This document shows, piece by piece, positions 5,446-34,940 of a DNA stretch of 64,000 nt (its first letter is position 1; every line of letters starts with the position of its first letter). The stretch covers positions 62,001 to 126,000 of the forward strand of contig JAHRBC010000006.1 in NCBI GenBank assembly GCA_022702545.1, read 5' to 3'. The position numbers and the translations under genes are program-made. This DNA is from Phycomyces nitens. Taxonomy: Eukaryota > Mucoromycota > Mucoromycetes > Mucorales > Phycomycetaceae. The notes under the pieces are model-generated. The model saw only the letters and a list, made by a program, of their open reading frames with translations, was not told where the DNA came from and ran no database searches.

Positions 5446-5462
5446 TAATTCAGGGGAAGGAT

Positions 5463-5478: not shown

Positions 5479-5480
5479 AT

Positions 5481-5807: not shown

Positions 5808-5809
5808 TG

Positions 5810-13104: not shown

Positions 13105-13749
13105 TTCTGATATAATAAAAGTTATATTAGTGACATATATTCAAAAGTGCGGGTGCTATTCAAGATGCAAGGGATATTATACTTACATTGCAAGGATTGG
13201 ATAAGAATGGGCAAAGAGGGGCAGAGTTGTGCGGCATGGCATCTTGTATGATTAGATTGACTAGAGATGGGATAAAATAAATTAATATGGGTGAATTGAG
13301 TGATAGAAAAATCGATTTACATACCAAAAACAGAGTTGGCGATTATAGTAGAGGGATGGTATATGGCGGCCAACAATAACTTTTTAAGAATATAGAAAAG
13401 TATTAGTAAATAGCCAGAATAATATTAGGGAAAAGCACAAAGACCAAGAAACGGCATTACCATTATGATAACCAGTTGTAGATGATGAAGGAGGCAGATG
13501 GGGTAGACAGTGATGGCGGCGGCCTATTGTAGAATAACAAACGTTGAGAAAAAAGAAATTGGACACGAAAAGATTTTATTTACCCTGGCACTGATGATGG
13601 CACCATATAATAGGCTGTACAAGTGGAAGAGGTCTACAGGATAGAAAGAGACAATCAGAATAACTTGCAAGATGGCACCGGCACATGTAACTGACCATGA
13701 TTAGTCTAGATGGGCAATGTAGAGAGAATGTATTGGGATGAGTATACAT
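13105..13749 (-). CDS. CMC-1 ORF C, mini-exon gene (degraded)
   Basis: Predicted exons on the minus strand: 13749-13696 (54 nt, ATG start), 13633-13584 (50), 13523-13461 (63), then about 13400-13345 and 13263-13187, and a further exon from 13106. Each is bounded by GT...AG. Exon lengths and splice positions match the same region of CMC-2 and CMC-3. With canonical splicing the frame meets TAA at the end of exon 3. An extra base relative to CMC-2 is the apparent cause, so this copy is probably broken. No known domain is recognised. It lies divergently from ORF B, 345 bp away, and may share a bidirectional promoter with it. Confidence 0.5.
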
Positions 13750-14094
13750 TTATAAAGAAGCCATTAATTTGTTAGTATAAAGAATGTCTTATTAGAAACC
13801 CACGTAGAGATAAAACAACAGAGATAAGAAGATAGAACAAAAAGAAAGAAAGAAATGATATTTAATTTCAAGCAGAGATCCAAAATTATTTTTTTATTAA
13901 TTTATACAGAGTATACAAAGGGTAATTAGGAATCTGTTTATTAAACTCATCTGTGTATATAAAGACCATCTATTTACAATTGAATCGACCCTCCTGCACT
14001 CGCAAACCAAGTATTTTGTATGTAAAGAGTAGAGTCTATAATTTATAAAGAGAATATAAAGCTAATTTTGAAAACATATGATATTCTATAGACC

Positions 14095-15280
14095 ATGGCA
14101 CCAAGATCCACTCCCACTTCTCGCTCAACCGATGAGCAACTCCAATTGTTGGAGACCTTGCGGGATATTCAAAACATCCTTGTCAGGGTAGATTCTCGCA
14201 TTGGCACCAGCATCGAAGGCAACGCCAGTACTGTCGAGGCTATTGACAGTTTGGCTGAGTTGGGGGCTGCCAACAACAGTGCAGTTCCTGCCGCCGAGCT
14301 TGCTTCTGCCTTTGGTGAGGAGCTATTCACCATTGTTGGCCCTGCTCCTGGTCCTGTTGCCATCCCTGCCACTGGTCCAGCTCCCATCATCCCGGCTGTG
14401 GTGGAGTATAACCCTGGTGCCGCCACAGAAGCGTTTGTAAGTATTAATATTCTCAATAGCTTACCAATTCATTGGCTTATAAAAATTTAATAGCGACATA
14501 TACGAGACTATCTGTGGAGGCCCAATTTCAGGTCAAACAACCCGGCTATGGTGCAAGCCAACAACAACAGGCCCAGGTGGAGAACGGAGGTTCATTTCAA
14601 TGAATCTCCCAACAAGGAGTTGGTTCTTGAACTCCTTGCCTACCTGGGCCCAACGTTCATCAACACTGGCTTGCGCCAAAGGGATCTTCGGGACAGTGTC
14701 TACCGGAACTTTTGCGGAAGGCGTCGCCAGGAGAGGGCATCTCCTGAGGCACGGGTAGCCGCAAATGCTCGTGCCAGAAAAGCCGGCCGGGAAGCTGATG
14801 TATGTAATAGTATAGCATCTAAAAGACTTGAGATTGAAAAACAATATTAAACATATGTTTGATTAGCATTTCCATCGCCGTCGAATGGCATACCTCTCCA
14901 ACAAGGATGCCATTGACAATGCGATAGGCAATGATTGCTCAGCACTCATCCAAAAGGCAGCAATGTCTGAGGGTGAGTCTGAGGATGAGTTTCCTGGAGT
15001 TCCTGGCCGGCGGATGATCCGCACAGTACGCCCAGGCTGGAGGAGCGATGAGGTAACATATTATTTAAATAAATTTTTTATTGCTTTTGAATCATAAAAT
15101 AATATTCTAATGAATGTATATTAGTTCAATCAGTTGATTGAGTTGTTGGACTCGTACTCGCTCCTTGGCTTGGGTGTCAACGTGCGCCAAATGCTCCCAA
15201 GAGTATTTGGCCGCATTGCGGATTTAGCAGTCCCTGAGGGGCTTTCTTCCTCCCTTCCTCAATGGTCACTGAGACAATAA
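14095..15280 (+). CDS. CMC-1 ORF B accessory protein (4 exons, intact)
   Basis: Exons 14095-14436, 14494-14799, 14867-15052 and 15125-15280 (342, 306, 186 and 156 nt) join in frame to 329 residues. Every intron is GT...AG and in phase 0. Exon 1 is variable and low in complexity, with a coiled-coil-like start. Exon 2 holds the conserved basic core (RWRTEVHFNESPNKELVLEL ... then Arg-rich RRRQER and ARARKAGREAD), probably for nucleic-acid binding. Exon 3 carries an acidic MSEGESEDE patch and the invariant PGWRSDE. Exon 4 ends AVPEGLSSSLPQWSLRQ. It converges on ORF A with 136 bp between the stops. No known family was recognised. By position it may play the part of TnpA-like accessory proteins of CACTA elements, which is inference. 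Confidence 0.82.
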
Positions 15281-15416
15281 AACGTTTTCTTTTTCTCTTA
15301 ATTTTCACCCTGTTTCACATATGCGCTATTTGGACTATATGTATATTTTACTTGGCTTTGTTTTGTTTTTGCTTCTTTAAAAGGGAGAGAGAGAGAGAGA
15401 AAAGTTTTATTTGTAT

Positions 15417-18400
15417 TTATGCATATATTTTTTTTGGCAGTGGAATGACCAGCATCCTTGCGTTGTTTTCAATTTTTAATTCGGCCGTAGCCACTTCCAA
15501 GAGAATCCTGTGCACTGGCAAGATGCTGTTGAACGTGTTTGGCGCAAAACCAGGGAGGCAGACGTCAACTTGCTCAACTGGTCTGAGATTGTCAGGATCT
15601 GGAACAAGCCAGTGGACGAATGCAAACACATGTTGCTTGTGGTGGAAATGAGGGCGGCTGTTGGAGGGGCTGGGAGGAGGAACGAAGTTGTGGGCGAACA
15701 GGTATTGGATTTCTCCTGTGTACGCGTTTGTCTTTCTACCCTCGAAATCCAGAAAAAGAGCTTGGATATATGACCCGCGACTGCCAGATCCACCTTTGCC
15801 CTTGTATGTCTGACCAAGAAGATCAATGGCCTTGATCTTTGTGATTCGGTCATTGACAAAGAATGGTGATGAAGATGCATGGAGGTAGTCAACAAGGTGC
15901 TCATTGTCATATGCTCTCTTGTAATATTCTAGGAGATGGGGATAGTCGATATCACCCATCTGTGTTGTTGCTGTTGCTGTTGGTAAAGGTAATGCTGACG
16001 GAGGGAGAGCTTCGTTACCCTTAATCGTAAGACTGACATCCAACGAGGCTTGCAGGAATGCGTCAAGACAGAAACGGCGTTGAGGTGCTGGTGCTGGGGC
16101 TGGGGCTACTATAAAAGTATTGGACAAGGAGGTGAGTTTTTCAATAGTACTTTGAAGGGGACTTGGCTCTGACATGTAAGTCTTTGCACAAGATCACCCT
16201 TATACATATTTTCAGTAAAACTTTTTATGTATGTTGATTCAAACCCATCTCTCCTGTTTGTATCAACATTCTTCAACAACCCATTATATCGCTCGAACCC
16301 AAAGAGCCAATAACCATACACTGGTCCAAAATCACGAACAGTGTCGCGAAGATGGAGGTGTAGGTGCATGTTGCAGGTGAGGATGGTACTAGGGTATTGT
16401 TGTTCACACTCCCGACCGAACTTCTCCAGGTGACTATGGGCCTCATCAAGTTCGTCAAAAGTGATGGTAGGCTTGGTGAGGAGACGGCAGGCATCAACAA
16501 AGCTGATCCAATTCTTGAACTTTGTTCCAGAAAGAACAGGCCGCAGCAGAACAGGAGAGTAAATCAACACCCAGGACTTCCACTCGTCGGCTTTCATTCG
16601 GGAAACCCCTTTCCGATCTTTGTCTTCAACATGGTATATCCCACAGGCAACACCATTGTCTCTGCCACCTTTTGCATCTGACAAAGATCCCGGTCTGTGA
16701 TCAGACCACTGGCGGTCCATGTCTCGACCATCCTCTTGGCCGTACCCAGGAATAGGTTGTGCATGGGATCAATGATCGTTCCACATACTAGATCAAAGTA
16801 TCCAAGGCGGTGCAGCTGCGACCATCGAACACCATTTTCGACCTCCAGCTGGTGCCTTTCTGAGGGCGTACTTGCACTCTTCCACTCCTCAGCATGCACC
16901 CGGTTTTCTTCACCATTGGCAAGCCTCCACTTGACAAACTCGAACCCACGAAAGTCCACATGGCTCGTGCCTTCCAGACGGGAGAAACTGCGACTGCACT
17001 TATAGCATGCCCGAGTGCTGTTATGGGCTGTGAAGCCACTAGTCTTCCTGGCAGCAGGGATGTCGCAGGCAACCATCATCAAGGCAGCACGGACAACCAC
17101 AGAAGAAGGGCACTCAAACGTTGGAATGGAAACACCAACGTACAGCTGGTTCAGGTCATTGACCAGCGGCTCCAGGTAGCTGTTTATCTCGTCTGATTTT
17201 GGCTCCTTTGGCCCAGGCATCAGGCCAACAAGGATGATATTCTCGGGCTTGAACCGCTCAGCCCTAGGAAGATTGTTTATTGCCAAGTAGATTGCTCCAC
17301 AGGAATAAGTCACCCCATCGAATGGCTGAAACCAATCGATGTTCAATGTCAGCATCAATGAACGTGGGTCAGCGACAAAGGAGACACCATCCTTATCCTT
17401 CAGGTCCTTCCACATGGCACCATCGTACACATCGCACATGGTGTCCATGACCTTAAGCTCTTTGTTCCAATGGCGGATATTGGCCTCAAAATCCGGGCGG
17501 AGGAAAAGGACACTCAACGCCTGCTTGACGGACTGATAGTGGAATTGGCGTCTTGGAACCAAAGTACCAGAAGAGGACGCCTTCATCAACTTGCACCCAC
17601 AGGAAGAGCGGGAACCAACCTTGGATGAGTTACAGAACTCAGGAACAGACCCAGCTTCCTCGTACACCTTGTGGCAATCCTGGCACACAACAGATTTCTT
17701 TATTCCTTTGGTCAAGGCTGAGAAACCCGTCATCTTTTGGAGACCAGGAAGGCTAGAGGGCAATTGGAAATCCTGCTCGTAGATCTTCAAGAGCTCGTTG
17801 ATGAACTCGATCAAGACAACAGCACCCTTGTTGACCACGTATTGGGATGCAAACAGGACCACGAATATGGCAATGGACCTGTGCACTGGATTCTCTGGCA
17901 TCTCGGGGGAGGAAAAGGGGTCTATTTTAAAATGATAATTATTAACACTCAATTTTTTCAGGTTCTTTTTCTTTATTCAACACTCGCCTTCACTGCTAAG
18001 ATCCTCGACTTCAATCTCCTCGACGTCGTCACCATCACTGTCTTCGGCATTGCTCTCCTCTTCATTGTTGCTGTCATTGCCATTCACCTCATTGGCAGCT
18101 GAATCATCGCCATCCAGCATCAGCTCAGATTCCACGACGGGTGAGTGGGAAAAATCATTCTGTCTTTCCATAGAACCGGATTGATGGGTTGTGATAGCTA
18201 CATATAGAATACAATAGCTTGTTACTATCTGCTGCTCTTCAAATAAATATTCCTTACGTTCAATATCAATCTCCACCATTTCTCTTTGTCTTTCTGTGTT
18301 TAATAAAAAACCGTGTTATTATACAAGGGCCAAAAAACAATACCAAAATCATCATACCCATCACAATTCTTTCAAGTTTGTCAATTCTTGCTCTCTTATT

Positions 18401-18505
18401 ATGACGCTGAGAGGTTCTCTTTGTTACCAGACTGTAACCTTGGGCGTTACCATTGCATTTAATGCAATAACAGGCCTCGTTGCGAAGTTGAGTAATAGAA
18501 GACAT
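15417..18505 (-). pseudogene. CMC-1 ORF A transposase, frameshifted
   Basis: Exons about 18505-18358, 18293-18258 (36 nt) and 18197-17984, and a last exon from 17921. It encodes a Tnp2/Plavaka-like DDE transposase. The N-terminus has the CYCIKC...H motif, followed by an acidic stretch, then the core with NIDWFQPFDG and DPMHNLFLGTAKRM, a GFERYNGLLKN glutamate segment, and a C-terminus ending VIPLPKKIYA. Two single-base losses break it: one near 16600 (after KIGKGFP, before MKADEWK) and one near 16175 (after KGDLVQ). The intron 3 donor also looks damaged. It converges with ORF B. Confidence 0.88.
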
Positions 18506-18747
18506 ATTGTATGCTTTTGAATATTAAGATAATAAGGAAACAAGTGTTACATTTACTTTATTCTCAACAACTTTATAATCTTACAAATTGATATTCATAT
18601 GTCTATTGTGTCTAAGCCAATAAGATAGAGTAAAGCTTTATCTTTAACCTGAATATGAAAAACTTTCTGAGATACAAAATCACTCCAGTTTTGCATAGGT
18701 TAAAAGGTTACTTCTTATCATTGTACTTCAGGACCGTTTTCCCAGTG

Positions 18748-19264: not shown

Positions 19265-19506
19265 CACTGGAAAAATGGGTTGGATTACTAGTGCACCAAG
19301 AGTACTTTAAGGTGTAGGAAATATAGGCCTTTTTTTCAACTCAGAAGATTTTTTTTATTCAAATAAAAAAAGACTTTTTAACAGATCCTATTGGTTCGGG
19401 CAAACAAGTAAAATACAATAGTTTTTTTTTGTCTATAAATTGACAGCAAATAAAACATATGAAGCACTTGTTTCCTTTTTTATCTTACAATCGAATCACA
19501 CAAAAT

Positions 19507-22500
19507 ATGTCTTCTGCTTCCCAAAACAACACTGCCTGTTACTGTAACAAATGCAATGGTAACCAAGAAGGGTTCTCTATGGTATCCAGACGCAATTATC
19601 AGCGTCATGCCAAAAGAGCAAGAATTGAAGAGGCTGGACAAACTGAGAGTAGTATGTATTAATTTTGTATTTACTGCGCAATAATAACCATTATTCTTTA
19701 ATTGAACCTCAGGCACACAAAGTGTCATTATGGATGTTGATGTTGAGGGTAAAAAATATTTATTTGAAAACCACTTTAAGGGCAATAAACTAATCTATTC
19801 CATATTTGTAGCAATCCCGATGTTTGAATCTGAATCCATGGAAACAATGGGCGGTCAGGCCAACCTACCTTTTTGGATTCCGTCCCGATGTCTGACGATG
19901 ATTTGGCTGACAATGAGGTCAATGGCGATGACACCGAGATTGCCAATGACAGCGACAATGGCAACAATGAAGAGAGTGATGTCGAGGAGATTGATGTTGA
20001 GGAGTTCAACGGCGAAGGTCAGTATTGAATAACTATCATAAAGAAGCATGCCGAAATTGAGTGTTAATAATTTTCCTTTTTTAAAACAGAACCCTTTGGT
20101 GCTCCTGGTATGCCCGAAAATCCAGTGCATAGGGCTATTGCCATTTTCGTTGTTCTTTTTGCATCCCGTTATGCAGTCAACAAGGGCGCAGTTGTATTGA
20201 TCCAGTTTGTCAATGAGCTCTTGATGGTTTATGAACAAGACTTTCAGCTACCAACAAGTCTTGCTGGTCTTCAGAAGATGACGGGTTTTAGCAATATCAC
20301 CAAAGATATCAAACGATTCGTTTCTTGCCCAGATTGCCACCAGATCTACGAAGAATCTATTTCCGTTCCTCCCTTGTGTAGCTCTGTGAAAATAGGCGCA
20401 AACATAACTTGTAACTGTGAGCTGAGAAAGAAGTCGACGTCTGGTGCCATGGTTCCAAAGAAAATCTTTGTGTATCAGTCCGTCAAAGATGCACTCAAGG
20501 TTCTCTTTCTTCGTCCTGGTTTCGAGCAGAAGATCGGCCTCTGGAACGACGAGCTGAAGGTGGCAGACACCATGTGTGACGTTTACAATGGCAAGATGTG
20601 GAAGGAGTTGAAAGACAGTGATGGTCTTTCATTTGTTGCCCGCCCTCGTTCTCTTCTGTTGACTCTCAACATCGACTGGTTTCAGCCCTTCGATGGTGTC
20701 ACCCACTCCTCTGGTGCCATATATTTGGCAATCAACAACTTGCCCAGAGATGAAAGGTTCAAGCCAGAGAACGTCGTCTTGGTTGGGCTAATGCCTGGAC
20801 CAAAGGAGCCCAAGTCGTATGAGATCAACAGCTATCTCAAGCCTTTGGTGGATGACCTTGAGCAGTTGTACGTTGGAATGACAATTCCAACCTTTGAGTA
20901 TCGATCTGGAGCAACCGTCCGTGCTGCACTCCTAATGGTGGCATGTGATATCCCAGCAGCCAGGAAAATGAGCGGATTCACATCCCACAATAGCACCAAC
21001 GCCTGCTATAAATGCAGTCGTCAATTCAGTCGTCTTGCTGGGACAAGCAGTGTGGACTTTTGTGGTTTCAACTATCTGGAGTGGTCTATTCGTCATGGTG
21101 TCGAAAACAGGGTGCATGCTGAGGTGTGGAAGAGTGCTAGTACACCCTCAGAAAGGCATCAGCTGGAGATCGAAAATGGTGTTCGATGGTCGCAGCTGCA
21201 TCGCCTTGGATACTTTGATCTAGTACGTGGAACGATCATTGATCCCATGCACAATCTCTTTCTGGGCACGGCAAAGAGAATGATGGAAAAGTGGATTGCT
21301 GGTGGTGATATCAATAGTGGACAACTGAACGACATGCAGCAAATCGCCAAGAAAATGACTCTCCCAGCCTCGTACAGTTCATTGACAGCAAAAATTGGAA
21401 AAGGGTTTTCATTTATGAAAGCTGACGAATGGAAGTCCTGGGTGCTGGCGTACTCTCCCGTCTTGCTGAAAGATGTTCTCAACAATGACAAGTTCAGAAA
21501 CTGGATGGACTTTGTCGATGCCTGCCGTCTCCTTGTAAAGCCATCCCTATCATTTGAAGAACTTGACGATGCCCATGACTACCTAGAGAAATTCTGTCAA
21601 AAGTGCGAGCGTCTTTACCCTCCTAGTGTCCTCACCTGCAATATGCATCTGCACCTCCATCTTCGCGAGACCATTCGTGATTTTGGACCAGTGTATGGCT
21701 ATTGGCTCTTTGGGTTCGAGTGATACAATGGTTTGCTAAAGAACGTGAGCACTAACAGAAAGGATAGTTTTGAGGCAACGTATATGAGGAATTTTGTTGA
21801 AGAATTGTACAAGGCCGATTATGTGCAAGCAGTCCTTGGATACTCCAGTAAAATCCCATTCTCTTCTGTCTTTGCCAAGCTCGTCTCCTCACCCACCCTT
21901 TCACCTGCCACTGTACCAGACACCCAACGCCGATTCAACTTGCAGCACTTCTTGGACTCTTCCTTGAATCCAGAGATCTCTGTTAATGGCAATGAACCTC
22001 TTCCTTCCTCGGCCTTTCCTCTGCAACTTGGAAAGACAACGTCAATGGGGGATGTAGACTATCCTCATTTGTTGAGTTACTACAGAGAGCAATATGGCAT
22101 CGCCGAACTCACCAGCTATCAGGAAGCTTCTTCTCGGTTCTCATTTGTAGACGATCAAATAACGAAGTTGAAGTCGATCGATCTACTTGGCCAAGTCTAC
22201 CGTGGAGCAAATGGATTAGGCAACCATGGATCCTATATACAGGCATTATATGTTGGTAGTAATGATCAGACAGTAAACGCATATACCGGCCAGATCCAAT
22301 ATCTCTTTATTCATAAGTTCACACCGCCATCAACTAGTACCAACCACTGGACTCGCATGGTTCATGAAAATCAACATGTATTCGCATTTGTTAGATGGTT
22401 TGCAACAACCTCCAACAGATCGCATGAGGATGAAGGTGTTGAGGTTTGCAAAAATGAATATTCCATGCCTGATCATAACAGCATCTTTCCAGTACACAGG

Positions 22501-22593
22501 ATTTTGTTAGAAGTTGCCATTGGAGAGCACATCACTCGAACTAATAAGAGAATGATGCTTGTCATCCCTCTTCCAAAAAAAATCTGTGCCTAA
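19507..22593 (+). pseudogene. CMC-2 ORF A transposase with frameshift and nonsense codon
   Basis: Exons 19507-19651 (145 nt), 19713-19748 (36), 19812-20017 and 20090-22593. Exon 1 has CYCNKCNGNQEGF followed by conserved His, a putative zinc-binding element. Exon 3 is 206 nt, not a multiple of three, and its two halves read in different frames, so it carries a frameshift before the acidic segment. In exon 4 TGA at 21721-21723 falls directly after the conserved GFE glutamate, where other copies have Arg (CGA), so one C-to-T change explains it. Downstream the frame is open to the usual VIPLPKKICA end. The stop falls right after the proposed third catalytic acid, so the truncated product would lack everything beyond it. 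Confidence 0.88.
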
Positions 22594-22721
22594 TATAAAA
22601 TAAAAAATATCTTCTTCTTTTAAAGATAACCAAAATTAAGGCACCAAAAATATACTTTATATATATTGACGGTATTACGTTCTTGGGGAAGTGGGTGAGA
22701 AAATATAAACAACAACTTTAT

Positions 22722-23887
22722 TTATACATTGTTTCTAAAAGCCCACTGTGGGAGGCGGGAAACCACGTCATTTGGGGCCGCTGAGTTTGACACACTCTTA
22801 AAAACCCGAGGCAAGAATTGATGGGAATGCAAACCCATTCCATCAAGGACATGAGAGTCAACAATAGTGATGAGTCTATTAAACTGAAATACAAGTATTA
22901 ATATTTTATATAACAATTCAGACACGTAACCCAGTTATTGCCTTATTATTATTTACCTCATCACTTCTCCATCCTGGGCGAACAGTACGGATGACACGTT
23001 TGGTGCCACTTTCAGATGTCTCTACATCAGATTCACCCTCGAACATTGCCTCCCTTATGATCATGTTGGCACAATCTTTGCCCATCATCTCATTGATTGC
23101 GTCCTCATTGTCAAGGTAGGCATTCAAGCGCCGAGAATGGCTCTAAAATTCTCAGTTAATACTGCTTCTTTGATATTAAATATTTATTAGTTATTTAAAG
23201 TATATCTTACCTCGCCTGCACGGTTTGCCCTTCTTGAACGAGTGTTCACGGCAGCTTTTGCCGAAGAAGACTTCTTGTCTTTGGAACTTTGGCTCCTGAA
23301 GTTGGTGTGAAGATTCTTGTGCAAGTCACTTCTCCTCATTCCCTTGCTCTCAAACTTGGGCTCCAAGTAGTTGAGAATCCTAACAACTAACTCCTTGTTT
23401 GGACTTTGGTTGAAAGGAACGTCTGTATTCTACCTTGGCTTGTTATTGTTTGCCAAGATCTCTGCAGTTATTCTCGACAAAAACTTTGGCTTCCACATAT
23501 ATTTGCGAATCGCCGTCTGACACAGTATATGAGATAATGAATTGATAACATACTATATAATTTGCTACTTACATAGACATCGTTGTTTGTCTGCTTGGTT
23601 GGCACAACTGGTAGAAGAGCAACAGGTGCAACAGGAATGGCAGGAGAGTTGACAAGAGCAGTGTTATGGGCACTACCCAATGCACCAATTGCTCTAATGG
23701 CTGAAGCATTACCAGCCACAACAACGTTGAGTTGAGCCTTTACAGACCCCACTTGCACTTCGACGTTTGTCATTTTGCCTTCCATCTCGGAAAGCTTTGC
23801 CATAATCTGTTCCATGTCAGGAGCAGGAGCAGAAGTAGGACCAGCAGGAGTGGGACGAGGAGCAATTGTTCTTCTTTGGTTAACCAT
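22722..23887 (-). pseudogene. CMC-2 ORF B accessory protein with one stop codon
   Basis: Exons on the minus strand: 23887-23573 (315 nt), 23516-23211 (306), 23142-22957 (186) and 22883-22722 (162), all phase 0. In exon 2 the usual Trp of the KPxWRTxV motif is replaced by TAG, giving KPR-stop-NTDVPFNQSPNKELV. The rest is open: Arg-rich NTRSRRANRAGE, then EGESDVE and PGWRSDE, and the end PQWAFRNNV. The changed codon (TGG to TAG) is a G-to-A transition. Its stop lies 129 bp from the ORF A stop. A (GT)n run of about 26 bp lies upstream, near 24000. Confidence 0.85.
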
Positions 23888-24323
23888 TTTCTAGAATATG
23901 ATAAAGTATATTTCGATTATAATTATTAGTTTTTGTTCAATTGAAATAAAAATAAATATAATATACGTACAAAAACTGTTTGGGTGAGTGAGTAAGTAAG
24001 TGTGTGTGTGTGTGTGTGTGTGTGTAAAGGTAAGAGAGGTTGAATATCAAAAAGGCCGTTATATATAGGCATTTTGAATGACTATAAAGATGTTCCTCTA
24101 TTGTCTTGAAGCACTGAGATGCAAATCGGCCTTGATATTGTTTTTGGGCTCAATCCATCATGCTTTCCGCAGCATGCTTCAAAGGTGAAAAAAATTTCAG
24201 ACTCTCTCCTTTTTTTGGTTCCCTTTATTTTTCCTTTTCCTTGCTTTTTTGATATTGGCGCCTTTCTCTGGTAAGACATTTTTTATACCTCTTTATACAC
24301 ACAAATTAACCTCTTTTTCATAG

Positions 24324-24834
24324 ATGTGTGCTCCCATTGCAACTCATCCTTTCCACAATGGCCATCTAGACAAATACTCACTGGCCGCATTCACTGGTAC
24401 CATCATCTTGATAAAAATTATTTTCACTTTCTCTTTTAGATTGGCCAAACAACTTATATAGGGATGCCATCGGCACCAGGTAAAATTTTTTCTTTCAATC
24501 ATACTTGTTCCCTCTCTGACTCTATTCCATTGTAGACTGCCCTTTCTATTCATGCCATCGGCCTCCTCCATCATTCGCAATTGTAATCATAAAGGTAATA
24601 TTCTTTATAAATCTCTTTTTGCTTATCCAAAATATTATTCAGATTATTTATTAATTATTATTATTATGTGTTTTATAGACTCACTTGGGCTTCCTTTACA
24701 CACCATACCCCCTACTTTGATAACCCATTTGGCTCCTGGTATGTAAATTAAATATATCATCACTCTGTTCACCCATATTAATTTTTATTCCCTTTTTTAT
24801 AGTAAAACCTGCCACACAGCCCATCCAGCCTTAA
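24324..24834 (+). CDS. CMC-2 ORF C, small protein encoded by mini-exons
   Basis: Five predicted coding exons: 24324-24396 (73 nt), 24440-24479 (40), 24536-24594 (59), 24679-24738 (60) and 24803-24834. They join across four GT...AG introns (43-84 nt) into one open frame of 87 residues. It begins MCAPIATHPFHNGHLDKYSL, includes SASSIIRNCNHKD, and ends PATQPIQP. The product is rich in Pro, His, Ser and Thr with no recognised domain. The ATG sits immediately after an AG, so at least one upstream exon probably exists (donor GTAAGA near 24269). More exon-like blocks follow the stop (24877 donor, 24950 acceptor, 25006 donor). That the frame is kept through four splice junctions argues for coding. Expression is unproven. 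Confidence 0.55.
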
Positions 24835-25580
24835 AATTCAAGTCCCCTTTGCGCACTCTTGCCCATCTCTTGCAATGTAAGTATCTTTTGACACACAAAA
24901 ATTTTCTCTTTGTACCCCACATCATTAACACTTCTTTATCTTTTACAGAACACTCCTGCAGCCCAAAAAATTGCTGGATATTCATATTTTTGCAGGTATT
25001 TTTTATGTAGAAAAATATTCCATCCAAATAGCAGCAAGCAACCGGGTAGAAACGGCTAGGCATAGGAATAGGCGTAATAATAGACCCTAAACCTAGAAAC
25101 ATTCTATTCTTTCCAATAAAAATAAAAGCGTAAACCATTACCAATCCAATATAAACGGGAAATCAAATAATGGGTGATATATTACTGGTGAAGAAGAATA
25201 AAGAGGCTTTCAAGTGTTTGATTTGATTGGTCTTGGGTAGTAACCACTAGTAGATACATCGAGTTTCTACAACTCGCAACATAAAGATATGTGACGTATC
25301 TGAACATTTCAACGACCACGTTGAGATGACCAAAATAGAACCGTTCTTTTAAATACTTTTTTTCATCGTTCCAAATCAGATCTATATACCGAAAGTGCTA
25401 ACAGACCTCACCTGCGGCACATTTTTACATGTTTCTACTACTGCAAACCATGACACCGAGGTACCTGTGAAGCTAGCATGCCTCCTAGTTGAAAAAATAT
25501 TTAAACTAGGTGAAACCCACCCCTTTTCAGTACCATAATGCCGGATTTCTGGTACTACAAACAGCCCCTCTTTTGCAGTG

Positions 25581-26220
25581 ACTTATGCAAGCCTCTATGA
25601 ATCCACTCTCTATCAAAGGCAACGAACCTCTCCCTCCTTCTGCATTGCCACTCTCTATGAAACCGTATAAATCAATGAACGACCTTGAATATCCCTATCT
25701 CTTGGAACACTATAAGCTCGTATATGCAAAGCCAGATTTAGTGGATTACTGACATGCCTCATCTTCGCCGTATTTTGTTGACAACCAAATATGCAAGATC
25801 ACGTCTATCGATCTCCTTGGCCAGTCATACAAAGGCAAGAAGGGTACTGTCGGTCATGGTTCTTATGTTCAAGCTCTGTTCTCTGGAAATGACAACAAAA
25901 ATCCGACTGCGTACACAGGCGAGATTCAATATATGTTTGTCCATTCCCAGTCTATGTCCCCTATGTCTCATGGCCGACTAAATTGTCATCACAATAAGCA
26001 ACATGTTTTCGCGTACGTTTGCTGGTTTGTCTTTGATTCCAAGCGTACAAGAGAACATGAAAGTGTTGACATTTGTAGGCCACAATTTTCTCCAGCCAAC
26101 TACCACAGTATTGTGCCTGTACATTGCATTCTGTTAGAAGTAGCACTGGCTGAACATATGACCCAAAATAATGTAAAGAAGATACTGGTTATCCCTTTAC
26201 CTAAAAAAATATATGCTTAA
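25581..26220 (+). pseudogene. CMC-3 ORF A transposase, C-terminal remnant
   Basis: The open segment begins at the CMC-2 terminus with QASMNPLSIKGNEPLPPSAL, matching residues after the catalytic core of the other copies. It continues to the conserved VIPLPKKIYA end. TGA at 25750-25752 interrupts it where CMC-1 has Leu (VDYLHASSSP). Everything upstream, including all catalytic acids, is missing. It converges with ORF B. Confidence 0.88.
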
Positions 26221-26366
26221 GTTTTAATAAAATATGTCTTTACTCATTTTTAAACAAGATTGCATACCAGAATAAAATAAACAAGTATAGGATTTGAATG
26301 AGTCTTTAGGATTGAGTGCATGAAAGGAGCAAAGATGAGGTTTTTTTTATTTATTTTTTAATTTTT

Positions 26367-27561
26367 TTAATTTCTAACGGCCCATTCAGGCGGGGGAGGG
26401 ACCATTCCCTCCGGGACTGCTACTTTGTCGACGTGGCCAAACTTTTGATGAAGCATCTGACAATGTCTTGTTCCCAAGCCGGCAAGCACGTAGTCATCGA
26501 CAAGTTCAAGGAAATGATTGAACTAAAATATTCATTAGTATTCTATAAAAATAATAAACAATATTCTTTGCAAATTTATTTACCTCGTTGCTTCGCCAGC
26601 TTGGGCGTGCAGTGAGGATGCGACGCCCGAACAAAGCATTGCTCCCCTCATCGTCAGACTCACCCTCAGACATTGCTGCCTTTTGGATGAGATTGTTGCA
26701 GTCCCGGTCCATTTCTTGGTCAATTGCCGCCTTGTTATTGGAGTATGCCTCCCAGCAGCGAGTGAGATGCTGATGAAATATATGATTGTCAATTGAGTTA
26801 ATAGAAATCCTTTTCATAATAAAAATAATAACTCACGTCCGCCTGACGGCCATTTCTTCTTGAGCGAGCATTCACTTCTGCTCGCTTCTCAAAAGACTTC
26901 TTCTCCTGAGTCCGCCTTCTATTGAAGTTGGTGTATATATACCGGCGGAGGTCAGGGTACCTCAACCCAGACTCAAGAAACCTTGGCTGGAGATAGGCCA
27001 TTATCTCGAGTACCAACTCTTTGTTGGGACTCTCGTTAAAGGCCACGTCCGTTCTCCAGCTAGGCTTTTGGTTGTTAGCCTCAACCAAGTCTGGGTTGTT
27101 GGTCCTGAAGTTTTGGGTCTTCAGGTAGCGTCTGATGAAGCCCTAATATATTTTTAGAAGGTATTAGACTAGCAATATATTTCAATAGTATATACTCACA
27201 TACCCACGGTTGGTTTCCTGCATTTGAGGAGCTTCAAACGCAGCAAGTGCAACCACAGTGGGGGAGAGAGAAGCAGCAGCAACGGGAGCAGCAACAATGA
27301 GGGCAGCAACAATGGGAGCAGCAGTAACGGGGCAGAAGAAGTTGCCCCAGGGACATTTCCAAAACCATCCAAGATGGCAATGGTACTGGCACCATCTTGG
27401 ATGATAACACCAAGCGTGGTGTCCATAGTGGCTAGCCTGGTGCCAACAGAACGCACCTCTCCAGTCACATTGGACAAACCAGCCTCCACACTGGTCAATC
27501 TGTCCATCAATTCCCTGAACTCGTCGGTTGTTCGAGGAGCAATTGCACATCTGTTTGCCAT
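26367..27561 (-). pseudogene. CMC-3 ORF B accessory protein with frameshift in exon 1
   Basis: Exons on the minus strand: 27561-27200, 27142-26837 (306 nt), 26769-26584 (186) and 26522-26367 (156). Exons 2-4 are intact and closely match CMC-1: WRTDVAFNESPNKELVLEI, Arg-rich RRRTQEKKS, MSEGESDDE, PSWRSNE, and the end PEWAVRN. Exon 1 is 362 nt, not a multiple of three. Its start (MANRCAIAPRTTDEF) and end (QMQETNRGY) lie in different frames, so one indel in the Leu/Ala-coding low-complexity part has broken it. Confidence 0.85.
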
Positions 27562-27979
27562 AATCTACAAAATATCAAATAATAATTTTCAATTGTTAAT
27601 TGTCTTTATTTCATGGGATCTCATATAAAATATGTAATGTCTTATACATACAATTGATATTTGTTTTATTGAAAGGTTTTGGGAAGCAGAAGGGTGTGTT
27701 ATGTGTGAACAGGCCTTTGAGAATATAAAATACAGAGTATTTATAAAAAAAGAGTTTGATGAGCAGATCCAAACACTTCTTGTACACACTAATGAATGGC
27801 TCCATTTGTTTTTAGATTCTATCCATTACACCTATTCTGTCTCTGTTTCAAATTATATATCCTTGTATTCTTTTCTTTTTTGCTCTTTTTTCCTTTCCCT
27901 CGTTTCCTATATCTGGGCCCATTTTTTCTTTCTTTTTTACACCTCTTTACACTAAAAAATCGGCGGCTTCTTTATAAAC

Positions 27980-30900
27980 ATGCACTCATTCCAATACATC
28001 CTGCCTGCATTGCTCATCCAAACAATTCGTGGTCAGTTGAATGTGCCTTTAGCATCTCGCAAATTATCCTGACTCTCTTTTTTTATTATTTTATAGACCT
28101 CCTCAACTCACACAGCTTTATTATATGGTTCAATCATCAATATTGGGCTAAAAAAATCTTTTTGTGTCAAACGATTTTCTATTCTAACGTTGCTTATTTT
28201 ATTGTAGACCACACCACCAATCACCCCATCTACCTCTTCCTTCATGTACGATTGTAATCATAATGGTAATATCTTTTTTTGGTCTTTATATTTTTTATAA
28301 TATTATTCTGATCCTCTCTTTTTATCTTATAGCCTTCCGCCACTCACACAGTCTATTATATTGGTATCGTCATCAGTGTCATGGTAAAAAAGAACCTTTT
28401 GGTGTCAAACTTTTTTTTTCTCTAACATTGTTTATTCTACTTGGGTCACCCCCATCACACCCTGTCCGTCTCTTCCATCATCTACAACTGGTTATCATAA
28501 TGGTAATGCCATTTCTTGGTCTATACTTTTCTATAATATTATTGTTATTGTCTATCCACCCCTGACGGAGTGTCAGACAATCCAGATTGTCCATCAGGAA
28601 CTCCGTCCTTCCAATGAGGTTTAGGCTTTCTAAGCCACGCTTTTTATTCTTTATAGTCAAAATTTTCTCTACCCCTCTAGTTCCTTATCTCTTTCAAGCC
28701 ACGCACCGAGGCTTAATTAAAGTTATCTAAAGAATAAAGAATGAACAATGAGCCTTCAATTTCAGTGCAGGAAATCCAGGAACTCATTGCTTTTAAGCGA
28801 CAGTGGGAGAGTGAGCAACAACGAAAGCTCGAACTCACCCCTGAGCTTCCCCAGGAGATCCTGGAAGACCTGGAGCTACCTCGCCCCAATCTCAAGAAGC
28901 TCTGTGCCACGTTTAGTCGTACCAGAAGCCTGTACGATGGAGGCCGGTGGACCAGGAACACGACCATCAACAAGCAAGTCCTTGCCGACATCGGGAAAGG
29001 GACGATCTCCACAACCAATGCTGTCCAGGCACGATACAAGGATTCGGAGAAGCTTCGAACGATGGCAGATGCCTCTACAGGGATGTTTGAGTCCATCCAA
29101 GCCGTCATTGCAGGAGGGGAAGGCGTTCCCCATGACCAACTGGTCAATCTTGCAGAACACGCGCGACGCCAAGCAGTCTATGGATACGGATCTGCCCAAC
29201 AGATCGATGACGAGGCCAAACTGTGGCTCGATAAGGCCTATGGGGTCCCTGAGTACCTACGAGGTACAGAGGATGATGACGACAAGAACCTGGCCTACGA
29301 TCCAGCCTTTATCAAGTCTTTCCAGGCAACGAAGTTCGAGCAAGCCATTCTGGCAAAAGCCATGTCACCCAGTCGCAACCCTAACTCCTCCTCGTTTGGT
29401 TCAAGAGGACGTTACCATGACAGAGGCCGTGGACGTGGCCGAGGCCGTGGAGGTTTCCAACCAACCAACAGTTCTCCTCGCCCGGGAAACGACCAGCCTG
29501 TCCGCCCAGCTCAGGGAGCAGGACAGTAGAGTGCCACTTGAGCACGGAGACGCCCAAGATACCATCCCAAGCGACAGGCTTCCAGGATGGTATTTCCCCA
29601 GGTGGGCGCCTCCAAGCATTTGTGAAATCCTGGGAAACCCTGACAACACAATCGTGGCCGAGATCGGTAGTGGGAGAAGGATACAAGATCCAATTCAGGT
29701 CACCACCAGTGCCTTGGGTTTTGCCACCACGGAGCATATCAGTCGAGGCCGACTTGGACCTGGAAGAGGCAGTCCAGAAGTTCCTGTCTGCGGAGGTGAT
29801 AGAGGAGGCGCCTTTGGAGGACAACCAATTCTTGTCACCGATGTTTGTCCTGCAGGAGAAGGACAAGAAGAGACCGATCCTAGACTGCAAGAGGATAAAC
29901 TCGTTCGTCCAAATCCAACATTTCAAGATGGAGGGGGTCCCTGCTCTGAGAGACTTGTTGTCGCCAGGCGACTTTATGACAAAAATAGACCTCAAAGACG
30001 CATATTTGGTGGTACCGATTCACCCTGCCTCATGCCAATATCTCAGTTTCCGCCATCGGACCAAGATCTTTCGGTTCAAGGCATTAGCCTTTGGACTCTG
30101 TGCCGCTCCATACGTTTTCTCCAAATTAATGCGGTTTGCCCTGGAACCTCTGAGGGCCAAGGGTATACAATTAGTGTATTATCTCGACGACATTTGCTTG
30201 GTGGCCAAGACAAAGGAATTGTCGACAATTCACACTCGGGAGACCATGGCGCACTTGGAGTCTCTGGGTTTCATCATAAACGTCAAGAAGAGTGTCACCA
30301 CCCCATTACAACAACAAGAGTTCTTGGGGTTCCAGTTCTCCACTCGGACAATGTCGCTGTCTGTGCCCAAGGCCAAGTTTCTGAATTTGCGCGACAAAAT
30401 CAAGCAGACACTGCGATCCTCACCAACTTGCCGCCAACTCGCCTCTCTAATAGGGAAGTTCACAGCCATGATGCCGGCTATAGGGGAAGCCTTGATACGG
30501 ATCCGCTACTTGCAACGGGACCTTGCAAGGAGTCTGCACCAGAGTGGCAGGTGGGAGAGCAGAGCGGTTATCACAAAGGAAGGGCAAATGGAACTACAGT
30601 GGTGGTTGACCAATGGTCATACGATCAACGGGATGCCTGTGCAAGAGTCACTTCAAACCAGTCCAGCCCTCAACATCCAAGTGGATGCTTCGGACACAGG
30701 TTGGGGCGTCGCGTCCAGCGTGATGAGGACATCGGGATTTTGGACGGAGGCCGAGAAGGGCACGTCAATAAACGCCAGAGAGTTGAAGACAGTGCTTTTT
30801 GCCCTTCAGCTTCATGCCGACGGTTGCCAACACAAGCATGTACATATCCAAAGCAACAATATAACTGCGATCAAATATGCGATGAGGTGGGGTGGGACCG

Positions 30901-33900
30901 CTTCGCCTTTGTTGCAGGAACTGGCCCTGCTGATTTGGAATCTGCGAGTGCAGAAGGGCATCAAGGTGACGATGTCACATATTGCGGGGGTGGAGAACAT
31001 CACTGCCGACAGACTGAGCCGAGTCAGGAAGCCGGTCCACGAGTGGGCCTTGCCACGACGCCTCTTCCAAGAGATACAGAGGAGTTTGGGGCGCATGACA
31101 GTCGACGCATTTGCCAGCCGCGAGAACACCAAGCTGGCGAGATTCTGGAGCTATCTGCCAGATCCGGCGGCAGAGGCGATAGATGCTTTCCAGCAGAGAT
31201 GGCCAAAGAGAGGAATTTTTGCACACCCACCATGGAGATTGATTCCGAGGGTAGTGCAGAAGATGAAGCAAGATCGGGCAACGATCGTTCTGGTCACCCC
31301 ATGGTGGCAGACGCAATTTTGGTGGCCCATGGTCATGAAGCACGCCCTACAAGCCCCCATCCCATTAGTCTCGACCAGGCTACAGTTCCCGTTAGCCGCC
31401 TGGAAGCTATCGCACGCTACTATACAGAAGTGGAGAAGCTCTCCGAGGAGGAGACCAAGTTTTTAACGACTGCCAACCGTTCTGCCACGAACAAGGTGTA
31501 TGATTTGGCTTGGAGGCGATGGGCAGAGTGGGCGACGGCCCAAGGAGCGGATCCTCTGGGTTACGACCCTAGATTAGTGTGTCAGTTCTTGGCAATGAGG
31601 CGAACATCAGGAAGATCACCATCCCAGTTGAATGTAGATCGTTCAGCAATCGCCAGTGTGTTCAGGATCATCCATAATGGGAAACAACCGATCGCGGAAA
31701 ACTACTTGGTCAAAACGTTTTTCCTGGCTTCGGGGAACAATGCCCCTGTAAGACAACCGTCCCAAGTTGCGGCCTGGGATCCTGAGAAGGTACTCCAGCG
31801 GATTTTGTTATGGGGATCCACGGAGGAGCTGAATTTGACAAAGCTGCAACGGAAGACTGCTTTGCTATTGTGTTTAGCCACGATGTGGCGCACGAGTTCG
31901 GATATTGGCCGCTTACAATTCCAGGATGTAACATTGTCAGTGGTTAAAGATGGAGCAGGCACCCGCCTACAAGGTCTGCAGTTGCTGGTGAGGAAGCCGA
32001 AGGAGGCTTCACAGAAGGAGTTGTTTTTGCGGCCGTTGGTAGGTCACCCAGAGCTATGCCCAGTGGAGACAACAAGAATCTTCTTGCAGAAGACCGAAGA
32101 CAGGCGCAGAGATTTGCCTCAGGATCACACTTTGTTTTTGGCAGACATCTCGGGGGCCAGAGTAAAGAGCATTAGACCATCAACGATGGGGTCGTGGATA
32201 AAGAAAACGTTGAAGGAGTGCGGGGTGGATACAACAATCCACAAGGGTCACTCGACAAGGTCGGCCGCAGCTACAGCAGCGAAGATGAGAGGGATTTCAT
32301 CGACAGCAATTAAGAAGCATGCAAATTGGAGTGCGAAGAGTCAGGTCTTCGAACGGTATTACTTGCGTCCTTCAGGACCCATAGGAGGGGATATAACAGC
32401 TGCAATTCTTGGGCCAACGGAAAAAGAACCTCATTGGAAGGACGGAGTTCCTGATGGACAATCTGGATTGTCTGACACTCCGTCAGGGGTGGATAGACAA
32501 TTTGGGTTGTCCGAAGGACGAAGTCCTGAGAATGAGGTGAGTTCCCGCCCACCACTTCCCATATAACGTCACTTTCTAGTAAACAAGGCCGTCGAATTGC
32601 AAGACGTGCATAGAAAGAGATAAGGAACTAGAGGGGTAGAGAAAATTTTGACTATAAAGAATAAAAAGTGTGGCTTAGAAAGCCTAAACCTCATTCTCAG
32701 GACTTCGTCCTTCGGACAACCCAAATTCTCTCTTTTTATTTTATAGACATATTCCGTTCACACGCCTATTATATGGTATGGTCATCAGTGGCATGGTAAA
32801 AAATCGTGTCAAATAATTTTCCCCTTTAACGTTTCTTATTCTACTATAGACCACCGCCATCAATCACCCCATCTGGCTCCCCCATCATCCTCAACTGTTA
32901 TCATAATGGTAATGCTGTCTCTTAGTTTTTCTACTTTCCATAACACTATTCTGATTCTCTCTTTTTATATTATAGATCTCCTCTACTCAAACAGTCTATT
33001 ATATGGTATCGTCATTGATGGCTTGGTAAAAAATATTTTTGTGTCAAACTATTTTATCCTCTAACGTTTCTTATTCTACTATAGACCGCCGCCATCAATC
33101 ACCCCATCTGGCTCCCCCATCATCCTCATCTGTTATCATAACAGTAATACTGTCTCTTAGTCTTTCTACTTTCCATAACACTATTCTGATTCTCTCTTTT
33201 TATCTTATAGACCTCCTCTACTCAAACGGTCTATTATATGGTATCGTCATTGGTGGCTTGGTAAAAAATATTTTCGTGTCAAACTATTTTATCCTCTAAC
33301 GTTTCTTATTCTACTATAGACCGCTGCCATCAATCACCCCATCTGGCTTCCCCATCATCCTCAACTGTTATCATAATGGTAATGCTGTCTCTTAGTCTTT
33401 ATACTTTCCATAACACTATTCTGATTCTCTCTTTTTATCTTATAGACCTCCTCTACTCAAACGGTCTATTATATGGTATCGTCATTGGTGGCTTGGTAAA
33501 AACTTTTCGTGTCAAACTATTTTCTCCTTTAACATTTCTTATTCTACTATAGACTGCCACCATCACTGTCCACCCCATCTGGCCCCTTCATCATCTACGA
33601 CTGGTTATCATAATGGTAATGCCTTTTCTTGGTCTTTATCTCTTTTCATAATATTATTCTGGCTATTTACTAATATTGTTCTATACTCTTAATAAGAATC
33701 TATTGTTGGTCATCACGTAACATCCCTCTACTTAATTGTCAACTCTGTTTCTGGTATGTAAATCGATTATTCTATTACCCAATTCACCCATACTAATTTA
33801 CTTTACCCCATCTCTAGTCAATCTAATCATACAAGATGCCATGCCATGCCGCACAACTCAGCCCCACTTTGTCCGTTCTTATCCATCCCTTACAATGTAA

Positions 33901-33910
33901 GTATAAAATA
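27980..33910 (+). CDS. CMC-3 ORF C region with amplified mini-exon pairs (interrupted, probably decayed)
   Basis: Exon 1 at 27980-28031 has the same start context as CMC-1 (CTTCTTTATAAA then ATG) and donor GTCAG. Then come six alternating pairs: exon type A (about 50 nt) at 28097, 28333, 32747, 32976, 33211 and 33446, each followed by exon type B (about 59 nt). They are separated by introns of about 59 and 67 nt that begin GTAAAA or GTAATG and end TATAG. Terminal exons lie near 33700-33761 and 33818-33898. A+B is about 109 nt, so each repeat shifts the frame and most stacked copies cannot code in one frame. A DIRS element occupies one intron. Some splice sites have changed (a GC donor near 28147, a lost acceptor near 28442). 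The CDS label reflects homology to CMC-2 ORF C. Confidence 0.45.
28614..28694 (+). repeat. DIRS left inverted terminal repeat
   Basis: 81 bp, inverted relative to 32614-32694 with one visible mismatch (CCACGC against CCACAC). It lies upstream of the gag start at 28741. The outermost 64 bp (28550-28613) are not repeated at the right end but are copied in the internal complementary region. Confidence 0.9.
28741..29529 (+). CDS. DIRS ORF1, Gag-like protein
   Basis: 262 residues. It starts MNNEPSISVQEIQEL and ends in a strongly basic RGG-type tail (DRGRGRGRGRGGFQ) suited to RNA binding. No CCHC knuckle is present. By position it is the structural protein of the element. Its stop is followed after 8 nt by the reverse-transcriptase frame, with no ATG between them. 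Homology to DIRS Gag is inferred from position and the basic tail. Confidence 0.8.
   Translation: MNNEPSISVQEIQELIAFKRQWESEQQRKLELTPELPQEILEDLELPRPNLKKLCATFSRTRSLYDGGRWTRNTTINKQVLADIGKGTISTTNAVQARYKDSEKLRTMADASTGMFESIQAVIAGGEGVPHDQLVNLAEHARRQAVYGYGSAQQIDDEAKLWLDKAYGVPEYLRGTEDDDDKNLAYDPAFIKSFQATKFEQAILAKAMSPSRNPNSSSFGSRGRYHDRGRGRGRGRGGFQPTNSSPRPGNDQPVRPAQGAGQ
29538..31466 (+). CDS. DIRS ORF2, reverse transcriptase and RNase H
   Basis: About 642 codons in frame 0. The reverse transcriptase has the fingers/palm segment TKIDLKDAYLVVPIHP and the catalytic YYLDDI near residue 216. RNase H follows (VDASDTGWG near 381, ARELKTV, ITADRLSR near 490). The third RNase H acid, normally Asp in an SDN/TDN motif, reads Asn (HIQSNNITAIKY), which may weaken the activity. 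There is no ATG near the start; the first possible codon is TTG at 29538, so reinitiation or frameshifting after ORF1 is likely. The last 166 nt overlap the recombinase frame. Confidence 0.92.
   Translation: MSTETPKIPSQATGFQDGISPGGRLQAFVKSWETLTTQSWPRSVVGEGYKIQFRSPPVPWVLPPRSISVEADLDLEEAVQKFLSAEVIEEAPLEDNQFLSPMFVLQEKDKKRPILDCKRINSFVQIQHFKMEGVPALRDLLSPGDFMTKIDLKDAYLVVPIHPASCQYLSFRHRTKIFRFKALAFGLCAAPYVFSKLMRFALEPLRAKGIQLVYYLDDICLVAKTKELSTIHTRETMAHLESLGFIINVKKSVTTPLQQQEFLGFQFSTRTMSLSVPKAKFLNLRDKIKQTLRSSPTCRQLASLIGKFTAMMPAIGEALIRIRYLQRDLARSLHQSGRWESRAVITKEGQMELQWWLTNGHTINGMPVQESLQTSPALNIQVDASDTGWGVASSVMRTSGFWTEAEKGTSINARELKTVLFALQLHADGCQHKHVHIQSNNITAIKYAMRWGGTASPLLQELALLIWNLRVQKGIKVTMSHIAGVENITADRLSRVRKPVHEWALPRRLFQEIQRSLGRMTVDAFASRENTKLARFWSYLPDPAAEAIDAFQQRWPKRGIFAHPPWRLIPRVVQKMKQDRATIVLVTPWWQTQFWWPMVMKHALQAPIPLVSTRLQFPLAAWKLSHATIQKWRSSPRRRPSF
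31301..32566 (+). CDS. DIRS ORF3, tyrosine recombinase
   Basis: 421 residues if ATG 31301 is used. The frame is open much further upstream, so the true start is uncertain. A SAM-like N-terminal domain (KVYDLAWRRWAEWA ...) precedes the catalytic domain. The R-H-R-H-Y set is visible: Arg197 (MWRTSSDIGRL), His317 and Arg320 (HSTRSAAA), His340 (HANW), and Tyr353 or Tyr354 (RYYLRP). It would integrate circular DNA through ATT sites without a DDE integrase. Residues from about 376 to 413 are encoded by the internal complementary region, so that DNA serves both as replication template signal and as the protein tail. Confidence 0.93.
   Translation: MVADAILVAHGHEARPTSPHPISLDQATVPVSRLEAIARYYTEVEKLSEEETKFLTTANRSATNKVYDLAWRRWAEWATAQGADPLGYDPRLVCQFLAMRRTSGRSPSQLNVDRSAIASVFRIIHNGKQPIAENYLVKTFFLASGNNAPVRQPSQVAAWDPEKVLQRILLWGSTEELNLTKLQRKTALLLCLATMWRTSSDIGRLQFQDVTLSVVKDGAGTRLQGLQLLVRKPKEASQKELFLRPLVGHPELCPVETTRIFLQKTEDRRRDLPQDHTLFLADISGARVKSIRPSTMGSWIKKTLKECGVDTTIHKGHSTRSAAATAAKMRGISSTAIKKHANWSAKSQVFERYYLRPSGPIGGDITAAILGPTEKEPHWKDGVPDGQSGLSDTPSGVDRQFGLSEGRSPENEVSSRPPLPI
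32428..32538 (+). repeat. DIRS internal complementary region
   Basis: 32428-32498 is the reverse complement of 28550-28620. 32499-32501 is AAT. 32502-32538 is the reverse complement of 32688-32724. This is the diagnostic DIRS arrangement that templates completion of both ends through a circle. It lies wholly inside the recombinase frame. Confidence 0.96.
32614..32694 (-). repeat. DIRS right inverted terminal repeat
   Basis: Inverted partner of 28614-28694. The outer 30 bp up to 32724 differ from the left terminus, as expected for DIRS ends, and both are represented in the internal complementary region. Confidence 0.9.
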
Positions 33911-33959
33911 CCTCGCATCTTGAACAACACCTGCACTCTTGAATATATGTCACTAATAT

Positions 33960-34301
33960 TGTTGTATTTGGCATAATGGTATATCAGAGAAAAGTGATAT
34001 ATAAACCCAGATAGCTGGATTATCTAAAATCAAGACAAACTATACCATCCAGAAATCCTTATCCAAATATGAAAATACCATACCCAATCTATTGTGGGAC
34101 AAAGTCCCAAAATACCTATTAACTAATAACACAGCTATTATGATAATGAATATCCAAGCTGATAAGAATTATAACAATAATTATAAATACTAAGTTAACA
34201 CACTTCTTGAATCAAGGACTGGACATAACTTTAACTTTTTCTCAATCACAATAAAGAGTCTCAAAGTATCCACCGTCCCTTTTCTACTACTAAATATCAC
34301 A
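33960..34301 (+). repeat. Solo LTR, 342 bp, copy 1
   Basis: TGTTGTATTTGG ... AAATATCACA, flanked by the 5-bp duplication AATAT (33955-33959 and 34302-34306). It carries TATATAAACCC near its start and CAATAAAGAG towards the end. It is inserted between the last ORF C exons and the terminus of CMC-3. Near-identical copies lie at 38767-39108 (inverted) and 47808-48149. Confidence 0.93.
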
Positions 34302-34306
34302 AATAT

Positions 34307-34940
34307 AACTTTTATTGTATTAGAATACTGCTGCAACCACCCAAATCGCCGTCAGTCCCTATTTTCAGGTATTGTTCAGTAGTGAAGCACCCGATCCAAG
34401 TAGTATCAAGTAGGCCGGTAGAAGCGGCAAGGATAAACAGTAATAGTATTAGAGCTTGTGTACAGAGCCATTCTATTCTTTCCAATAAACACAAATATAA
34501 ACCATAAACCTAATAAGTACGGGGTATAAAACAATGGGGGGGGGATCATTCTATGCTTGATTGCACAGTAATAGTATTCGATGATTGGTTAATTGCTTGA
34601 GGATATCCTTGATACCATGGAGAAAGCCAGCTTCTCCCCAACTTTATTTGCTGTGTGTAATTGTCTTTTCAATTTATAAACACATAATCTATTACACTAA
34701 AAACATAGTTTTAAGCACAAAAATCTGGTAAACACCAAAAATCTATATGCAGAAAAAGCTAACGAACCCTACTCTCCCAAAAGTTTTCAACTTTGCACCT
34801 GTATGAGATTCGACTTTGAGCCCAGGAGAAACCTTGCTTACTCCCATACTTGTAGTATTCTGTTCTCCCCTGAAAACCTAAACTTTTCCCCTATTTATTT
34901 CTGGTTATATACATGGTTTTACCCCACAGTTTTTGCAGTG
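34307..34940. other. CMC-3 right subterminal region
   Basis: No coding sequence. 34320-34540 is the reverse complement of about 12900-13110 in CMC-1 and includes CCAATAAACAC, a likely poly(A) signal of ORF C, and a G9 run near 34540. The rest runs to the terminus TTTTTGCAGTG. Confidence 0.7.

Follow-up and report, generated by a model that had tools for sequence, protein, structure and literature searches.

By the usual view, proteins and the element ends are all that a DNA transposon requires. Micro-exon genes, which are known from Schistosoma and other organisms, have symmetric exons with lengths in multiples of three. In the En/Spm elements of the CACTA type, extra products arise by alternative splicing of one long transcript, according to the excerpts of PMC2613891 and PMC1636069. 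For SmTRC1 and the fungal TRC elements, the excerpt of PMC1636069 reports matches in Rhizopus oryzae and several spliced transcripts, one product of which is said to evolve rapidly. In the literature on CACTA elements with Mucorales, mini-exons, Mucoromycota/EnSpm or Mucor, the titles and abstract openings among the matches listed contained no unit of the kind described below. In this study of Phycomyces nitens, we propose with moderate confidence that CACTA-type transposons carry a third component, which is spliced and mainly non-coding, diverges from the second gene (ORF B) and has been exchanged between transposon families as a cassette.

The window analysed is a stretch of 64,000 nucleotides of contig JAHRBC010000006.1, and the genome searched comprised 49 Mb in 11 contigs. 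The host elements in the window (CMC-1 to CMC-5) are CACTA/CMC (En/Spm) transposons, as indicated by their tnp2-type transposase, CACT termini and 3-bp duplications. CMC-2 occupies 19265-25580 on the forward strand between the termini CACTGGAAAA... and ...TTTTGCAGTG, its left part belonging to family Y and its right part to family main. Its ORF A (20071-22593, forward strand) is a tnp2-type transposase in a single frame broken by a stop at 21721-21723, and the Pfam search detected PF02992 at E 6.8e-19 over 20071-21723; the same domain (tnp2-type transposase) was detected in CMC-1 (E 1.8e-20) and CMC-4 (E 2e-15). The CMC-4 transposase shows 99% identity over 98% of the length to Mucor saturninus INT47_010971. 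The short terminal inverted repeats begin with CACT, and the termini read CACTG rather than CACTA. CMC-1 (12493-18747) has the terminal inverted repeat CACTGGGAAAACGGT and the target-site duplication CTA (CTA/CTA). In family main, the flanking triplets are identical in 7 of the 8 copies with both ends printed, the exception being L016, and CMC-2 is flanked by GTA and ACT, without a matching target-site duplication. The 5' part of ORF B of CMC-2 lies on the reverse strand at 23560-23887, with its start codon at 23885-23887 and an unfixed end of the first exon. The unit under study is on the opposite strand, and its exons run away from ORF B toward the right end of the element. Elsewhere in the window, a retrotransposon at 227-6133 has reverse transcriptase, RNase H and integrase domains on the minus strand (666-3572) with repeated stretches on both sides, and a tandem repeat of about 110 nt at 61070-61580 contains five copies of a 72-nt core.

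The sequence-only reading had described, at 24324-24834, five exons of 73, 40, 59, 60 and 32 nt (the last counted to the stop codon) joined through GT-AG introns into 87 codons. All five are present, and the description is incomplete, since one upstream exon and two downstream exon parts also belong to the unit. The predicted unit of CMC-2 therefore has seven exons on the forward strand, from about 24200 to 25119, divergent from ORF B. An upstream exon (24200-24270), the 5' start of which is undefined, ends at the donor GTAAGACA at 24271 and is followed by a 73-nt mini-exon (24324-24396) carrying the ATG of the 87-codon ORF. Mini-exons of 40 nt (24440-24479, exon B type), 59 nt (24536-24594, exon A type) and 60 nt (24679-24738) lead to a 74-nt mini-exon (24803-24876) in which the ORF stops at 24832-24834, where L032 has TAC instead of TAA. 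The last exon (24949-25119), with an undefined 3' end, includes the 3' motif GTAGAAACGGCTAGG at 25046-25060 and AATAAA at 25115. The junctions described here, including those of the 73-nt exon, match those of P0001 (partial), the product of INT47_005590 in the automated M. saturninus annotation, and the matching junctions in that annotation are a prediction rather than RNA. A 711-nt region was 99-100% identical at 40 scored places (40 of 340 candidates). In the genome, 368 occurrences of the 15-base motif of the last exon were counted, whereas a reversed control gave 3; these copies, together with the conserved donors described below and the gene predictions of others, bear out the earlier view of a recurrent, divergent third component.

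The same reading had placed the unit in all five elements. This holds for CMC-1 and CMC-3, which are homologous to CMC-2 by sequence, and for CMC-4 (44290) and CMC-5 (48200) in position and style only. The CMC-1 unit (12942-13770, reverse strand) has predicted exons at 13770-13696, 13633-13584, 13523-13461, 13379-13325, 13260-13187 and 13106-12942. The CMC-3 unit (27957-34488, forward strand) consists of tandem exon A/exon B pairs with a period of about 235 nt, and it is broken up by a tyrosine-recombinase element (about 28546-32719) and an insert of about 330 nt (about 33960-34290). The former has a 1273-residue frame with weak matches to Phage_integrase (E 6e-4) and DUF3435 (E 0.006), contains inverted repeats, offset from each other, near its two ends, and looks Crypton- or DIRS-like. 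An interspersed repeat of about 350 nt is found in the window in three copies 97-99% alike, at 33955-34321 (in the CMC-3 unit), 38747-39117 (inverted) and 47799-48149. The region at the matching place of CMC-4 (44060-44870, forward strand) is mini-exon-like and had no BLAST similarity to the CMC-2, L029-L031 or L035 units, and that of CMC-5 (48150-49000, forward strand) has only two good intron candidates. Mini-exon-like structures at this place, without BLAST similarity where compared, are a feature of CMC-4, CMC-5 and L029-L031. The alignable right arms fall into two clades, C2-like (main and Y) and C1-like (C1, F, L035, C3 and L041). Several C1-like units contain tandem blocks in the order intron, exon B, intron, exon A, of which 20 distinct ones of 228-250 nt were collected.

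Splicing of the unit is probably real. Among 10 of the 17 C1-like rows (the near-duplicates L028, L039, L040, L042 and L046 and the truncated L036 and L045 were omitted), the donor hexamers had 1 change in 24 positions, or 0.042 per site, whereas the intron bodies had 0.421 and the exons 0.326 changes per site. It is this roughly tenfold lower rate at the donors that supports splicing. In the same rows, the acceptor triplets showed 3 changes in 12 positions (0.25), and the rate per site was 0.391 in the pyrimidine/branch region and 0.183 over the initial 60 bases of the 3' region. As only the donors stand out against the acceptors and the branch region, the donors, and not all splice signals, carry the evidence. 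The 3' region was quieter in the C1-like rows (0.133) but not in the C2-like rows (0.104), and exons and introns evolved alike. Some array units are without a donor or an acceptor, and two such losses are common to C3 and L035; the GT/AG tally omitted L034, L036 and L045.

The number of donors with a complete intron candidate was also counted by a crude scan, which links at most two introns into a chain. The region 24240-25100 of CMC-2 has five such donors against a shuffle mean of 0.4, and none of 300 shuffles reached five; on the reverse strand of this region the same scan found none. The counts for C2, C1, F and L035 were 5, 4, 4 and 6 against shuffle means of 0.4-0.7 (reached by 0, 3, 1 and 0 of 300 shuffles), and their longest linked chains were 2, 2, 2 and 1 introns (reached by 1, 6, 7 and 141 of 300). 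The counts of CMC-4 and CMC-5 were reached by 20 and 29 of 300 shuffles, and those of L029 and L030 were shuffle-like (132 and 102 of 300). The count of 9 for L031 (0 of 300) was set aside because it includes neighbouring introns of ORF B. The case for real introns in CMC-4, CMC-5 and L029-L031 is weak. Processed, intron-less copies were absent from the 40 scored of 204 candidates, and no processed copy matched the one exon-exon junction pattern searched. Taken together, the conserved donors, less clearly the acceptors, and the excess in donor count characterise the unit as a putative spliced transcription unit.

By one measure, the donor count, the splicing pattern exceeds chance. The ORF does not, as its length of 87 aa was reached in 80 of 1000 dinucleotide shuffles. 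The variable columns of the 87-codon ORF were distributed over the codon positions as 16:16:16 in 10 distinct rows, and as 11:10:14 in the 9 rows that remain when the rearranged copy L012b is left out. In these 9 rows, the exons were variable at 35 of 264 columns and the introns at 25 of 291. Among the C2-like rows, the 87-codon frame is interrupted only in L025, by a 1-nt loss, and in the rearranged L012b. The C1-like units L027 and L028 lack the ATG, one nucleotide of exon 4 is missing from L035, L043, L038 and C3, exon 5 is longer by 5 nt in C3 and L038 and by 15 nt in L043, and an in-frame TAA is present in L041 and L044. With codon positions varying equally, exons varying at least as much as introns, and start, stop and frame not kept, a gene for an 87-aa protein, which the sequence-only reading had named ORF C, is not supported. 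Of the two observations that this reading had set beforehand as speaking against its gene, equal rates at the codon positions were found and poor conservation of splice sites was not, the donors being well conserved. Its alternative guess of a spliced RNA fits better than the protein gene.

A fast-evolving protein gene is an unlikely explanation. It would encode a small accessory or TNPA-like product pasted from short exons, and since this product would act in trans, many copies could carry broken frames. The automated gene predictions of others do call proteins in the unit. L032 has a sense codon where most C2-like rows stop, which gives an uninterrupted frame of 138 aa; 7 of 1000 shuffles reached this length. 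In the last two C1-like exons, 28 of 51 changes fall at third positions of one frame, and this frame of the last exons gives a similar C-terminal peptide in C1, L028, L035 and C3. Plant TNPA-type proteins are likewise pasted from many exons and have little mutual similarity, according to the excerpts of PMC2613891 and PMC1636069. A column-shuffle codon test on 11 rows gave p values of 0.067 and 0.044 for the last two C1-like exons and 0.016 and 0.050 for an intron, and its positive control was weak (ORF B, p 0.031 and 0.24, 16 differing pairs). For each of two spliced products, the search for protein homologues up to E 10 returned a single match, an automated M. saturninus prediction, and Pfam found no domain up to E 0.1 in three predicted products. 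Against such a gene, start, stop and frame vary among the amplified families, and the 87-codon frame is without a clear codon-position bias. In CMC-3, the exon pair that is repeated has a combined length of 109 nt (50 + 59), so that each copy is read in a new frame; in the predicted M. saturninus protein INT47_002869 (P0122), the copies of one repeated exon are read in three frames. The place of a second protein gene also appears to be filled already by ORF B. A conserved protein from the unit is unlikely.

The unit was very probably exchanged between transposase families, as judged from one representative per family. For the seven family pairs within the unit clades, ORF A has dS values of 0.95-2.21 and an amino-acid identity of 0.70-0.78. 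Over the last approximately 730 nt of the unit, K is 0.04 for main and Y and 0.09-0.13 among C1, F, L035 and C3; between the two clades, the K of the unit is 0.29-0.34. Depending on the pair, the start of the alike block varies between about 126 nt inside ORF B and about 310 nt beyond the ORF B start codon, and the block ends 51-109 nt past AATAAA in the seven pairs within the unit clades. Outside this block there are only patches at 65-71%; main and Y share 128 nt at 69% in the right terminal region of about 376 bp. The block very probably moved between families, because introns would hardly remain so similar by descent beside synonymous sites and flanks that are so diverged. A conflict between the ORF A tree and the unit was considered and discarded as not significant: the AU test on ORF A gave p 0.564 for a sister grouping of main and Y, which was therefore not rejected, and the tree with main and Y together was 1.33 log units better. 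The case for exchange therefore rests on relative divergence and branch lengths and on one recombinant.

This recombinant is CMC-2, which is a recent product of Y and main through the shared block. Its diagnostic sites are Y-like at 150 of 150 positions in 23560-23994 and main-like at 243 of 243 in 24194-25580, most of them lying in the diverged flanks, with 9 (Y-like) and 39 (main-like) in the shared stretch. The crossover interval, with Y-derived sequence on the left and main-derived sequence on the right, is 23995-24193. The switch from Y to main was absent from 12 other mapped copies. The right flank of CMC-2 is the same insertion site as that of L018 (99.3% flank), and the main-family insertion adjoins a remnant of the CMC-3 transposase at 25583-27776. 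The locus in the window thus derives from a copied, nested arrangement.

Recombination of this kind is also central to an explanation that we consider improbable, in which the unit is functionless, spliced-looking DNA in a non-coding arm and its likeness is kept only because recombination between abundant elements homogenises it. The direct observation of a recombinant agrees with this, and so do the similar evolution of exons and introns, the acceptors and branch regions that are not clearly spared, and the splice sites missing from some array units. However, homogenisation alone would not leave donor hexamers about ten times less changed than introns, and families without alignable arms still show intron-like structures at this place, weakly. 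A highly improbable alternative is that an element protein binds the repeats at subterminal positions, as in En/Spm, and that their resemblance to exons and introns is only apparent. In its favour, the unit is situated toward the right end of the element, CMC-3 has tandem arrays, and the 7-mer TAGAAAC occurs five times in the 6362 bp of family main (L009; window 25040-25440), always near the element ends. Against it, neither of the two elements tested (main and C1) has a strong 10-mer repeat marking the unit, so that such an array found no support there, TAGAAAC does not recur in C1, F or L035, and the splice donors are the most conserved positions. In family main, TAGAAAC is a possible subterminal protein-binding motif.

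For the spliced, mainly non-coding component that we prefer, the following course is conceivable. The region would be transcribed independently, in divergent orientation to ORF B, giving a polyadenylated RNA from many mini-exons. In the sequences, candidate donors and acceptors are at matching places across related families, and the donors are conserved. The comparison of families, in which no frame is common, suggests that splicing was held and not a peptide, and that the RNA is most likely non-coding or encodes no more than a tail under weak constraint. Recombination appears to have swapped, among transposase families, the block that extends from near the ORF B start to shortly beyond the poly(A) signal, because it is just this stretch that distant elements still share. 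The spliced RNA may then serve the transposon in trans, for example by keeping the RNA surveillance of the host busy or misdirecting it, and a trans-acting RNA would explain like units in several families. A bolder form of this proposal, in which a multi-intron non-coding RNA is the third component, splicing itself matters and the unit spreads as a cassette independently of transposase descent, is put forward tentatively as an unlikely case. A structured RNA in the last-exon region was rejected as a candidate, as the fold and covariation of 7 units were weak (-11.5 kcal/mol over 195 columns, covariation term -1.97, 7 of 37 pairs changed on both sides). At gathering scores, Rfam gave only a tRNA in the window and no match in the unit.

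Stalled splicing reportedly triggers silencing in Cryptococcus (SCANR). A non-canonical RNAi pathway of Mucor lusitanicus is described as a direct, targeted degradation of transposon RNAs in the title of PMC11943222. With the present unit, one could test directly whether a transposon benefits from splicing when it faces RNA-based silencing in Mucorales. If our reading is true, a spliced, apparently non-coding unit with hundreds of copies, which moved between transposase families, would be a novel kind of transposon component, and transposon families in one genome would share modules through recombination. It would also mean that the automated annotation of this region lists proteins which the fungus probably does not produce.

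Compared with known systems, the present unit resembles the micro-exon genes in its very short exons in series. It differs from them in that its exons measure 73, 40, 59, 60 and 74 nt in CMC-2 and 50 and 59 nt in CMC-3, with no stable frame. The elements share Transposase_21 with SmTRC1 and the fungal TRC elements of the CACTA superfamily outside plants, for which the excerpt of PMC1636069 describes neither a repeated mini-exon array nor an exchange of such a unit. With the CACTA (CMC, En/Spm) elements that carry tnpD and tnpA, they have in common the tnp2-type transposase, the 3-bp target-site duplications and a second gene, here ORF B, the termini being CACTG. Unlike En/Spm, the elements of P. 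nitens have a third, divergent unit of many predicted mini-exons beside ORF B.
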